A stretch of DNA of 64,000 bases from Candidatus Sneabacter namystus (lineage in GTDB: Bacteria > Pseudomonadota > Alphaproteobacteria > Rickettsiales > Rickettsiaceae), in contig NZ_CP043312.1 in assembly GCF_008189685.1 (NCBI RefSeq), forward strand, positions 248,001 to 312,000, read 5' to 3'. Shown piece after piece: positions 14,896-19,535 of this stretch. The first letter of the stretch is position 1; the number at the start of each line of letters is the position of its first letter. A program made the translations under genes and the position numbers. Below the pieces are notes generated by a model that saw only the letters and a program-made list of their open reading frames with translations, did not search any database and was not told the DNA's origin.

Positions 14896-15713
14896 GCATC
14901 ACTGTATAAAAGCTCCTTACATCCGCATTCTATCCAATGTTTTGCTAATTGTACATACAGGTCTACTGATATGTTTTCTGCTCGTATGTTACCGTTTATG
15001 GATAAAGCATTAAAAATACAACTAGTGTTGTTCCAGACTCTGGAAAGGGAGGTTTTAATCATTTTTCTACGTTGTGTAAAGGCACTTTTAGTTATGTTTT
15101 CTAGTGCCGTTAGATGCGATGTAGGAATGGGATATTCTTTTTGTGTGAGCAAGATGGTACATGAATCTACCGAAGGCGTTGGATAAAAGAATTGCCTTGG
15201 AATATCCATTAATTTAGAGCAATGAAAAATGGACTGGCATAATACGCTTAGCCTTCCATATTTTTTCGTGTTATGGCTAGCACATACTCGTTCTGCTACT
15301 TCTTTTTGTAAAGTAATAGTCGCGGAACGGATTTTTTTTGCATTGCGTACTATGAAAAGGAGTATCGGAGAGGAAATGTTATAAGGTATGTTGGCAATAA
15401 TATTTGTCGGTTCTGATATCGATAGCAAAAATTTTGACGCAAGTATGTCTTCATAAATTACTTCTAATACTTTGCAACGGCTTTGTAGAGGGGTAAGATA
15501 CTGTTTCATGCGTGTATCTTTTTCTATAGCTATTAATTTTGAGGGGCCTAGCTTTATAATAGATTTTGTTAAATGTCCCGTTCCTGGGCCTATTTCTAGA
15601 ATGCAAGAATTTTTCACCTCAGGAGATGATAGTGCTATCTTGTCACACATAGCGTAACTTAACAGTAAATGTTGCCCTAGACTTTTTTTTAGGTAGGTGT
15701 GTTTTGTTTTCAC
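14892..15713 (-). CDS. rsmA: 16S rRNA adenine dimethyltransferase RsmA (KsgA)
   Basis: SAM-dependent enzyme that dimethylates two adjacent adenines in helix 45 of 16S rRNA, a late check on small-subunit assembly. The N-terminal KKSLGQHLL, the SAM-binding EIGPGTGHLTKSI and the catalytic NIPYNISSPIL motifs are all present. The C-terminal domain has the typical FYPTPSVDS and QRRKMIKTSL segments. The length of 273 residues is normal. It overlaps the surA-like gene upstream and the HIT gene downstream by 4 bases each, so the three are one translational unit; surA-ksgA linkage is widespread in proteobacteria. Confidence 0.96.
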   Translation of the reverse strand: MKTKHTYLKKSLGQHLLLSYAMCDKIALSSPEVKNSCILEIGPGTGHLTKSIIKLGPSKLIAIEKDTRMKQYLTPLQSRCKVLEVIYEDILASKFLLSISEPTNIIANIPYNISSPILLFIVRNAKKIRSATITLQKEVAERVCASHNTKKYGRLSVLCQSIFHCSKLMDIPRQFFYPTPSVDSCTILLTQKEYPIPTSHLTALENITKSAFTQRRKMIKTSLSRVWNNTSCIFNALSINGNIRAENISVDLYVQLAKHWIECGCKELLYSDA

Positions 15714-16678
15714 TTTGTGAGTGATGTTTTGTTGCCTGAAGATGGTTCTTTCATTTCGTAAATTTGCGACCGCTCTAATAAAAGATTATACAGCACCCTT
15801 CCTTCTATTACCTTTTGTAGACTTGAAATTGCTGTTTTTGTATCTTCTATATCTTTTTGATCTAATTCAAGCATCCTTTTTTTCTGTAAAAAAATCATTT
15901 TTTGATATCCCTGAGATTTCCATATTTTGCTATATTCCTGTTCTGGTAACGTATATATCGCTTTTTTTATTTCTGGTTCCATTTCTGATATCATTTTATC
16001 TTGATATATACTTGTTATTGCCTTCTTACTTGCAATATTTGCGACTTTTTTAAATTTTTTATTGTTTCTCAGGTTTTCTAACTGTTTTTTTGCTCCTATT
16101 GTTCCATCAAACTCAATATATTTTACTTGGATTGGATTATCTTTATTTGAAAATGAGAGAATTTTTCTTGCCTCTTGTTCTTTCACGTCCGTTATCCCTT
16201 CTAAAACGTACTCTGTCATCTTTGCTCTAGATATTTTTTTTGTTAGGTATTCTAGTATGTCTTTTTTTTGTAAATAGTTATCATTTAGTAGCGTACTAAA
16301 TTTTTCTTCGGATAGATTATTCATATCGACTATTTGATGCAGTAAGACTTCTGCCTCTAGAGTATGCGTTTTTGCGATTTTTTGAATATTCTTTGGTATC
16401 TTCTCTAGATACTTTTTTAAAATAATATCTTCTGATATGTCAGACAAAGCAAAATCTTCTAAGCTGACGTTGTACATATCCCCCGCTAAATTTACTGCAG
16501 AATGGTTATATGACATTTCTTTATAAAGAAAACGTATTATTTTTTTTCTTAAATCTAGGTCGTATGTTGTTATGGGAGAAGAGTTTACTACTCTGATAAT
16601 CTTTATTTCCTCTGCGTTTGCAGCAGCTAATGTATTACTGGCAGTAAGCAATACGAATAAGGTAGTAATTATTCTCAT
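15710..16678 (-). CDS. SurA-like periplasmic chaperone
   Basis: A cleavable signal peptide (MRIITTLFVLLTASNTLAAA) precedes a helical SurA N-terminal domain that opens with IRVVNSSPITTYDLDLRKK, the signature of this family. The rest is about 250 residues with a weak parvulin-like stretch (IQVKYIEFDGTIGAKKQLENL); key isomerase residues are not obvious. Its role would be to escort unfolded outer-membrane proteins to BamA. Position directly upstream of rsmA, with a 4-base overlap, supports the SurA assignment. I chose the ATG at 16678 for the clean signal peptide; in-frame ATGs at 16690 and 16708 exist. Confidence 0.72.
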   Translation of the reverse strand: MRIITTLFVLLTASNTLAAANAEEIKIIRVVNSSPITTYDLDLRKKIIRFLYKEMSYNHSAVNLAGDMYNVSLEDFALSDISEDIILKKYLEKIPKNIQKIAKTHTLEAEVLLHQIVDMNNLSEEKFSTLLNDNYLQKKDILEYLTKKISRAKMTEYVLEGITDVKEQEARKILSFSNKDNPIQVKYIEFDGTIGAKKQLENLRNNKKFKKVANIASKKAITSIYQDKMISEMEPEIKKAIYTLPEQEYSKIWKSQGYQKMIFLQKKRMLELDQKDIEDTKTAISSLQKVIEGRVLYNLLLERSQIYEMKEPSSGNKTSLTK

Positions 16679-16979
16679 AAAAGAATCCATATAAATAACT
16701 ATAAACAAGTATTATGTATCTAATTTATTAGTTGTAGATGCTACGCTGAGGTGCGTTAATTGGCAAGTTAAAATGTTGATTGTAGAAGCAAGAATATATT
16801 TAGAGAGTGTAGAAATTACATTGATATTGGCTTTTGTGTGTTGTTTAATTAAAGTACCGCTTTGCTCTTGCGGTGTTTTGCTGTTGATGGTAATATCGTC
16901 GCGTAGCTCTTTGGTGTTGGAGTCATTTCGTTTATAAATAAAAACTAAATAATAAATAGTAAGTTGTGTTGTGAAAAAT
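16679..16979. other. About 300-base noncoding stretch between surA-like gene and rpsF
   Basis: No credible gene is present; a leftward frame here mainly mirrors the start of rpsF. The only structure I see is a short hairpin at 16856-16874 (ACCGC, nine-base loop, GCGGT), about 100 bases ahead of rpsF. It could belong to the leader of the ribosomal protein operon. Confidence 0.4.
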
Positions 16980-17727: not shown

Positions 17728-18288
17728 ATGAAGATGGATGTAGTGTTACTTTCGTCGGTCAGAAAGTTGGGGAATCCTGGAGATGTTGTTTCAGTTAAGG
17801 CTGGATATGGTAGGTATTTGGTTTTGTCTGGTATTGCATTGAGAGGTACAAAGGAGAATTTGGAAAGCATTAATAGTAAAAAGGAAGAAGTAGCTGCACG
17901 TAATGCTGAGGCAAAGAAGATTGCTGTAAAGGTTTTTGATTTGTTATCTGGAAAAGATGTTACATTTATACGAAATGCAGGTGATGATGGAAGGCTTTTT
18001 GGTTCTGTTACAAAGAGAAATATTACTGATGCTGTGAATGAGTACGTTTCTGCATCAGAGTGTGGTCTTACTTTTGTTCTTGATGTAAGGGATGTTGTTT
18101 TATCTATGCCTATAAGGCATTTGGGCGTTCATCCTGTTTTTGTATCATTGCATAGTGATTTAGATGATGTTGAGATTTTGGTAAATATTGCGAAATCTGA
18201 AGAGCTTGCTAAATCCGCCTTGTTGGATTTTAAGTCTTCTACTAGCGATGTGAAAGAAGATAAAAATTCAAGGAAAGTTGATGTATGA
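17728..18288 (+). CDS. rplI: 50S ribosomal protein L9
   Basis: Two-domain large-subunit protein. The N-terminal RNA-binding domain has VVLLSSVRKLGNPGDVVSVK and GYGRYLVLSGIAL, the L9 signature. A long connecting helix (about 48-75) and a C-terminal domain with DGRLFGSVTKRNI follow. The length of 186 residues includes an acidic C-terminal extension. The stop codon overlaps the flgB start in ATGA, so ribosomal and flagellar genes are translationally coupled. A second ATG two codons in is also possible. Confidence 0.95.
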   Translation: MKMDVVLLSSVRKLGNPGDVVSVKAGYGRYLVLSGIALRGTKENLESINSKKEEVAARNAEAKKIAVKVFDLLSGKDVTFIRNAGDDGRLFGSVTKRNITDAVNEYVSASECGLTFVLDVRDVVLSMPIRHLGVHPVFVSLHSDLDDVEILVNIAKSEELAKSALLDFKSSTSDVKEDKNSRKVDV

Positions 18289-18683
18289 TTTTTGGACCAA
18301 GTTTTTTACAATCGTTTCTAACTAAGGCTATTTCTCATTGTGAAGAGCAGCATGCTATTTTATCTCGTAATGTTGCTAATATTAATACCCCATGTTTTCG
18401 TGCTAAAACTTTGCAACCGTTTGCTTTGGATAAAACAAACAAAGCTTTTGGCGCTGTCTGTACGAAAACACATGATCGTCATATTTCCGTGTGCAGCGAA
18501 ATCGGTAATTCTGCTTCTGTTACGAATATGAATTCTGAGCAAAAGCCTAATGGCAACGATGTTAATCTTCTTGAGCAGAATTCTGCTATTTCTTCCAATT
18601 CTACCAAGCATGCTTTGTTACTATCATTATTAAACGGCATTTTTGATATCAGGAACTCTGTGTGTAAAGGTAATGATGCTTAA
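18285..18683 (+). CDS. flgB: Flagellar basal-body rod protein FlgB
   Basis: Proximal rod subunit of the flagellar drive shaft. The conserved N-terminal rod motif is clear: a short helix, then HAILSRNVANINTPCFRAKTL. The C-terminal helix (about 105-130) also fits. The length of 132 residues is normal. There is no signal peptide, as expected for a substrate of the flagellar type III export machine. It starts inside the rplI stop codon and overlaps flgC by 11 bases. Presence of rod genes in an otherwise Rickettsiales-like genome implies a retained or relict flagellum. Confidence 0.9.
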   Translation: MIFGPSFLQSFLTKAISHCEEQHAILSRNVANINTPCFRAKTLQPFALDKTNKAFGAVCTKTHDRHISVCSEIGNSASVTNMNSEQKPNGNDVNLLEQNSAISSNSTKHALLLSLLNGIFDIRNSVCKGNDA

Positions 18684-19143
18684 AAGAATTGTACCTTTTG
18701 TGGTTCTTTTTCTGTTTTTTAATAGTACCTTGGCGGATGAGTTGAAAAAGGCAGCTCGGCACTCAAGTAATGGGGCTGTGTTGCAGTCTAAAAGAATTAG
18801 AGCAGCTTCAGAAAATTTGGCTAATTCTACGATTCCGGCTACTAATAAGAAAAAGTTGTACGTTAGGAAAGTTGTAGTTGCTAAGAATACTTATAGTAAG
18901 AAGCGTAAAATGAATATGTTAACTGCCCGGTATACTTTAGATAAAAAGAGAAGCAAGTATAGGTATGTATATGATCCTGAGCATGTTTCCGCTAATTCAG
19001 ATGGTTATGTAGTGTTACCTAATATTGATTCTAATATTGAGAAAGCTGATATCTCTGAAGCTCAGATATACTACAACGCTAATCTTAAGGTGATGAAGAT
19101 ATCGTATGATATGCTAAACAATATTACTGGAATTTTAAAATGA
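18673..19143 (+). CDS. flgC: Flagellar basal-body rod protein FlgC with an N-terminal signal peptide
   Basis: Proximal rod protein. The family signature is clear: QSKRIRAASENLANST near residue 39, then YRYVYDPEHVSANSDGYVV and PNIDSNIEKADISEA, ending in a C-terminal rod helix. The oddity is the N-terminus: MMLKRIVPFVVLFLFFN is a basic plus hydrophobic stretch followed by a plausible signal peptidase site (TLA before DE), and the normal FlgC start aligns just after it. FlgC is usually exported by the flagellar type III apparatus without a cleaved signal. AAAGG lies just ahead of the double ATG at 18673. A longer start at 18643 would only add residues before the hydrophobic stretch. Confidence 0.9.
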   Translation: MMLKRIVPFVVLFLFFNSTLADELKKAARHSSNGAVLQSKRIRAASENLANSTIPATNKKKLYVRKVVVAKNTYSKKRKMNMLTARYTLDKKRSKYRYVYDPEHVSANSDGYVVLPNIDSNIEKADISEAQIYYNANLKVMKISYDMLNNITGILK

Positions 19144-19535
19144 CTGTGAATATTTCTAAAATCAGTCCTTTTGCATTGCTGCCTAGCAATGTTGTCGATA
19201 AAGAGGTGTATAACAATGCTGTTGGCGAATTTCAAAGAATCATGAAGGATTATAAACAAATAAGAGAATGCTTGGAAAGTAATTGTGATAATAAGGTTGC
19301 AACGTCTTACAGCAATGATATTCAGCGCAGCAGTAAAGGTAGCTGTATTGCTCCTTTAGAAAAGAAAGTTTTTAATTTTGAGAGTGTCGTTCGCGATGTT
19401 ACTGTTGATAAAGGGTCGAATTTAGATGCGGTATTAACATTGAAAGAACTGCAGACAACAGTTAATGTTGCGACTAAGATTAGAGATAGGATAATTCGTT
19501 TTTGTGATCAAGTAATATTTTCTTTTCACGCTTAA
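19140..19535 (+). CDS. fliE: Flagellar hook-basal body protein FliE
   Basis: FliE joins the MS-ring to the proximal rod. Its C-terminal half carries the family pattern (LDAVLTLKELQTTVNVATKI, then RDRIIRF). The N-terminal 60 residues are poorly conserved and longer than usual (131 residues in all). The start overlaps the flgC stop in ATGA, making flgB-flgC-fliE a tightly coupled set of exactly the proximal-rod proteins. No other flagellar gene is in the window. Confidence 0.85.
   Translation: MTVNISKISPFALLPSNVVDKEVYNNAVGEFQRIMKDYKQIRECLESNCDNKVATSYSNDIQRSSKGSCIAPLEKKVFNFESVVRDVTVDKGSNLDAVLTLKELQTTVNVATKIRDRIIRFCDQVIFSFHA

Follow-up and report, generated by a model that had tools for sequence, protein, structure and literature searches.

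The rod subunits of the flagellum are textbook substrates of type III export, and standard accounts have the flagellum build its axle via a channel of its own. Canonical FlgC, as known from Salmonella and E. coli, from family TIGR01395 and from solved structures (PDB 7bin and 7cgo), is leaderless and is exported uncleaved by the type III apparatus, whereas the FlgC of Candidatus Sneabacter namystus described here carries a 21-residue Sec-type leader. The two share the gene order flgB-flgC-fliE, the mature N-terminus and a conserved core (Q..R......N.AN, PYxRK, YDPxHP.A...GYV..PN and EA...YEAN). Several flagellar parts (FlgI, FlgH, FlgA, FliP and FlhE) are delivered by Sec via N-terminal signal peptides like the leader found here, but these are ring, chaperone or gate proteins and none is axial, while FlgC belongs to the rod. 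FlgG of Liberibacter asiaticus is listed among predicted signal-peptide proteins (PMC5167687). This is a rod protein in a Sec-leader screen, but it belongs to the distal rod and is not FlgB, FlgC or FlgF, and the passage on it (PMC5167687) describes no extension. The reduced flagella of endosymbionts such as Buchnera and the placozoan Midichloriaceae keep the gate and basal body and have lost filament parts (PMC6879607), as is the case here; however, such part loss is not tied to leaders, and relatives that have hook and filament genes bear them too. In a targeted full-text search of the literature, Sec leaders were not reported for FlgB, FlgC or FlgF, which is not proof of novelty.

The window is the whole stretch of 64,000 nucleotides that was analysed, and it comes from a genome of 633 kb with two contigs and 35% GC. 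The genes flgB, flgC and fliE form one operon-like run, with flgC placed between the other two (Table 1). The first ATG of flgC is at 18673, a second ATG is at 18676 and an alternative TTG is at 18643. FlgC matches TIGR01395 with E=1.1e-20 and 74.2 bits; this is by far the best family match but is under the curated cut-off of 102.1 bits, in a genome that evolves fast. The family profile matches solved FlgC chains in the PDB with E=4e-30, and 16 invariant columns of canonical FlgC are shared by the protein here. FliE of this genome is highly diverged, and a FliE profile search gave no strong match and no Pfam FliE hit. An ORF adjoining ksgA in the window is like a SurA-type periplasmic protein only in its position and layout.

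Table 1. Features of the flgC locus and related genes; positions are those of the window unless a contig (C1) is named.
Feature	Position	Strand	Basis or remark
Predicted Sec (signal peptidase I) signal peptide of FlgC, MMLKRIVPFVVLFLFFNSTLA	18673..18735	+	conserved in relatives' FlgC
Mature FlgC (DELKKAARHSSNG...), stop 19141-19143	18736..19143	+	TIGR01395; profile vs solved FlgC chains
flgB, without signal peptide here	18285..18683	+	TIGR01396 2.9e-11
Diverged fliE, without signal peptide	19140..19535	+	position after flgC; top match among relatives' FliE, phmmer 2e-7 (fliE of L026)
FlgF with signal-peptide-like N-terminus MISKNTINIVLPITSLLIISIIHYSCKA/NNAGY	C1:384783-385589 (outside window)	-	rule, weak score 3.7
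Signal peptidase I	C1:111822-112601		E=1.7e-20 to E. coli LepB
ORF adjoining ksgA, signal-peptide-like start MRIITTLFVLLTASNTLAAANAEE	15710..16708	-	no significant Pfam family

The 21 extra residues of FlgC are followed by a predicted cut before DELKK. The n-region has a charge of +2, an 11-residue hydrophobic run occupies codons 6-16 (18688-18720), and the small residues at -3/-1 are part of T-L-A. The leader therefore has the basic n-region, hydrophobic core and small -3/-1 residues of a type-I Sec precursor. A Tat or lipoprotein leader is ruled out since there is no RR and no Cys at the site. Signal peptides were called by a simple rule that combines a hydrophobic 9-mer of at least 2.0, a von Heijne-type score of at least 3.5 and an n-charge of at least 0; the matrix is approximate, and 13 of its 15 column sums are 36 while two are 37. 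The FlgC leader passes with a score of 8.7, and the FlgI and FliP leaders of this genome pass as well. The rule gives at least one false positive, FliG of this genome, and is passed by 6.0% of the chance ATG ORFs found here and, among random peptides, by 4.5%. Because about 5% of chance sequences pass, the single flgC gene is weak evidence; the leader stands above chance because it is conserved in relatives. With a predicted leader, this FlgC would not be an uncleaved, leaderless type III substrate.

The first-pass annotation had described about 21 extra residues with a basic start and a TLA/DE site, and this extension is real and conserved. The hydrophobic core of 13 residues that it reported is also present, delimited here as a run of 11 residues. 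It was correct that FlgB and FliE of this genome have no such extension. In relatives the hydrophobic stretch aligns in frame and a start downstream of it is usually missing, and a cleavage site is predicted here with the simple matrix.

FlgC is present in 44 of 93 relatives and in 98 of 262 genomes of the order, and the upstream DNA of these genes was retrieved. By the rule, the leader is found in 41/42 FlgC of families f1, f7, f10, f17 and f27 (19/19 in f1 and 22/23 in the other four together); the remaining one (G105) was called by eye, which gives 42/42. Family f22 has the leader in 2/5 and f19 in 0/1, and the other Rickettsiales families have it in 0/22. Among other Alphaproteobacteria 1/26 passes, and this case (G376), an arginine-rich frame with a TTG start, is evidently spurious. 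None of 20 further Pseudomonadota, picked for a frame open 24-163 codons upstream of FlgC, has a leader; across all other Pseudomonadota FlgC tested it is absent in 45/46. The letters of the leader change fast while the signal-peptide anatomy is constant across the five families, as in MKRYFLLILVFMAALSGAMQSFA/DNLKQ (G042), MLRIIIAILFFAPMASWA/IEDSL (G010), MRKLYHLILLILFPNILFA/ADPLL (G063) and MIIRIILLLMILASASAKA/EDSLF (G205). A protein search of genome contigs with the FlgC of the window gave no match; the same search with the FlgC of a relative gave four records from Rickettsiaceae/Rickettsiales, matching family f1, to which this genome belongs. A plasmid DNA search gave no match.

On an FlhA tree whose deep branches are partly unresolved, the distribution of the FlgC leader requires 3 changes, against a mean of 15.4 for shuffled labels. 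A single origin was rejected on this count of 3 changes. The simplest reading would be that the common ancestor of f1, f7, f10, f17 and f27 gained the leader once, early on, that it was gained again inside f22 and that f19 lost it. The FlgC leaders of two f22 genomes (L187 and L189, in G128 and G151) resemble a second independent gain, and FlgB is leaderless there.

In 24 of the 43 leader-bearing FlgC the predicted cut leaves a mature protein that starts 7-9 residues ahead of the conserved core, and canonical FlgC start codons are mostly 7-8 residues ahead of it. Residue 2 of the solved FlgC chain aligns immediately after this cut. The linker is longer in some f10 proteins, with an offset of 10-26. 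Cleavage would usually leave a mature FlgC that begins at the canonical FlgC start. Most of the leaders end in AxA-type sites, and the -3/-1 site is poor in a few (G018, G021 and G105). These poor sites are consistent with an uncleaved hydrophobic segment that serves as a membrane anchor and holds FlgC, with FlgB and FlgF, at the inner membrane round the MS-ring, perhaps in the form of a collar; a hydrophobic N-terminus would be conserved under Sec targeting even if no cleavage took place. An anchor is nevertheless unlikely, since AxA-type sites are found in most leaders, cleavage gives the canonical start and the mature parts are ordinary FlgC. In canonical rods the N-terminal helix of FlgC packs in the rod core, which is a further point against an anchor.

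Leaders are also found on other axial proteins. For FlgB the rule that was used for FlgC finds a leader in 9/16 of f1, in 15/20 of f7, f10, f17 and f27, and in 0/50 elsewhere. FlgB is leaderless in this genome, in the sister genus (G011 and G031) and in G004, G026, G014 and G063. In one relative (L033, G040) flgB is split in two frames, which reflects a frameshift or an assembly error. FlgF in f1 has a leader in 13/17 by rule, and the remaining four were called by eye; this genome and G087 are included, and the leader is absent in G073, G089 and G063. After cleavage FlgF would have NNASYI-type ends that match the canonical (M)DNSxYI. No leader was found by the same rule on FliE (0/85) or on FlgG (0/15 in f1 and 0/18 elsewhere, counted after hand correction of FlgF/FlgG automatic labels that were partly swapped). 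The FlgE, FlgD and flagellin proteins of the full-flagellum genomes examined have canonical starts and no leader. Very long hook proteins, with FlgE ORFs of 844-1029 residues, occur in several Rickettsiales (L300-L308). The leader-bearing proteins are those of the proximal rod beyond FliE, and this part of the rod therefore appears to travel by Sec.

The export machinery of this genome is present. FlhA is intact, and FlhB, FliP, FliQ, FliR and FliI were found along with components of the base, rod, rings and motor (FliF, FliG, FliM, FliN, FlgG, FlgH, FlgI, MotA and MotB). No flagellin, FlgE, FlgD or FlgK is recognisable in this genome, and the retention of stators without a filament is odd. 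Since hook and filament genes were not found, the rod of this genome may be vestigial. Flagellin, FlgE and FlgD are retained alongside the leader in G004, G026, G063, G073, G087 and G089; therefore, the leader predates the loss of the hook and filament here. Swimming Rickettsiaceae have been observed (PMC3914857). Contig C2 (27.6 kb) carries a type VI secretion cluster (L080 and L081) with VipB, VasE, a ClpB-type ATPase and others; a plasmid-borne type VI system has been reported in only two Rickettsiaceae, of which Sneabacter is one (PMC10847448).

Several suggestions of the first-pass annotation do not agree with this inventory. It had placed a single rod subunit in the periplasm via Sec; the signal peptide of FlgC is supported and its arrival there is probable, but the N-terminus of FlgF in this genome is signal-peptide-like as well and FlgB has a leader in most relatives, so the restriction to one subunit does not hold. 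The absence of a full export gate, which it offered as an example, is contradicted by the genes listed above, and its rewired or repurposed basal body is at odds with the flagellin, FlgE and FlgD of leader-bearing relatives.

Given a complete gate, and since type III signals lie at the N-terminus and have a loose definition, the extension could be translated and FlgC still exit through the flagellar type III gate, with the hydrophobic stretch acting as a modified type III signal. This is quite unlikely since the obligate type III partners FliE, FlgG, FlgE and FlgD have no leader, and it would leave the gain of a basic-hydrophobic-AxA segment in FlgC, FlgB and FlgF alike without a reason. Segments so hydrophobic are typical SRP/SecA clients, which also argues against it.

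An ATG near the canonical start is missing in 35/43 leader-bearing flgC genes and found in 8/43; therefore, the extension must be translated. Most of the relatives' genes have no start codon of any kind at this position, and several have a TTG. In flgC here a TTG at codon 24 (18742) is close to the canonical start, and an additional FlgC product that lacks the extension could be made from it. A minor product from such a downstream start could enter the type III route while the long form enters Sec. Although the TTG here and in several relatives and the occasional nearby ATG would permit this dual use, it is very unlikely since most relatives have no start codon at all there. The pooled pN/pS among near relatives is 0.53 for the leader and 0.13 for mature FlgC; the leader is coding, constrained and fast-changing. 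Fast evolution under constraint is usual for signal peptides. A chance in-frame stretch that only resembles a signal peptide upstream of the true start, which the pass rate of about 5% among random peptides in this genome would allow for this gene alone, is extremely improbable and is ruled out for the group by conservation over five families, by the excess of synonymous over non-synonymous change per site in close pairs and by the lack of alternative starts in most relatives.

The preferred reading is that FlgC here is a canonical proximal-rod protein behind a functional, cleaved Sec signal peptide and that it joins the rod from the periplasm, to which we assign a probability of roughly 0.7. 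The extension, its conservation and distribution, its fit to the canonical N-terminus and the existence of signal peptidase I and the gate in this genome are established, and from these sequence features we infer Sec export, cleavage and periplasm-side assembly. FlgC would be translated from ATG 18673 or 18676 and sent through SecYEG, and signal peptidase I would cut it after ...TLA. The released periplasmic protein would have an ordinary FlgC N-terminus and would be built into the proximal rod around FliE and FlgB. In mutants that have no rod-hook, the periplasm receives what the flagellar exporter releases (PMC13344023); therefore, the rod polymerises in the compartment to which Sec delivers. 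The same shift to Sec may have affected FlgF in family f1 and FlgB in many relatives. The type III route would be kept by FliE, as the adaptor to the MS-ring and gate, and by the distal-rod protein FlgG, and FlgE, FlgD and flagellin of the relatives examined would stay on it.

For the wider group there is about an even chance that one large Rickettsiales clade has moved FlgB, FlgC and FlgF, the proximal rod beyond FliE, from type III to Sec with the same mature ends and periplasmic assembly, with type III still serving the gate, FliE, distal rod, hook and filament, as a split-route flagellum.

A natural lineage with Sec leaders on axial subunits would show that rod assembly is independent of delivery through the channel. 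The relatives provide natural experiments, since the leader is variable on FlgB, constant on FlgC and dependent on family on FlgF. It becomes testable whether a rod can grow by taking up periplasmic subunits, and for which of the axial proteins such a move is impossible. There is also an annotation trap, as gene callers could clip the leader and pipelines could mark the genes as unusual. The presence of a Sec tag on FlgC, and often on FlgB or FlgF, suggests that in a large branch of the Rickettsiales part of the axle may be delivered by the general export route.
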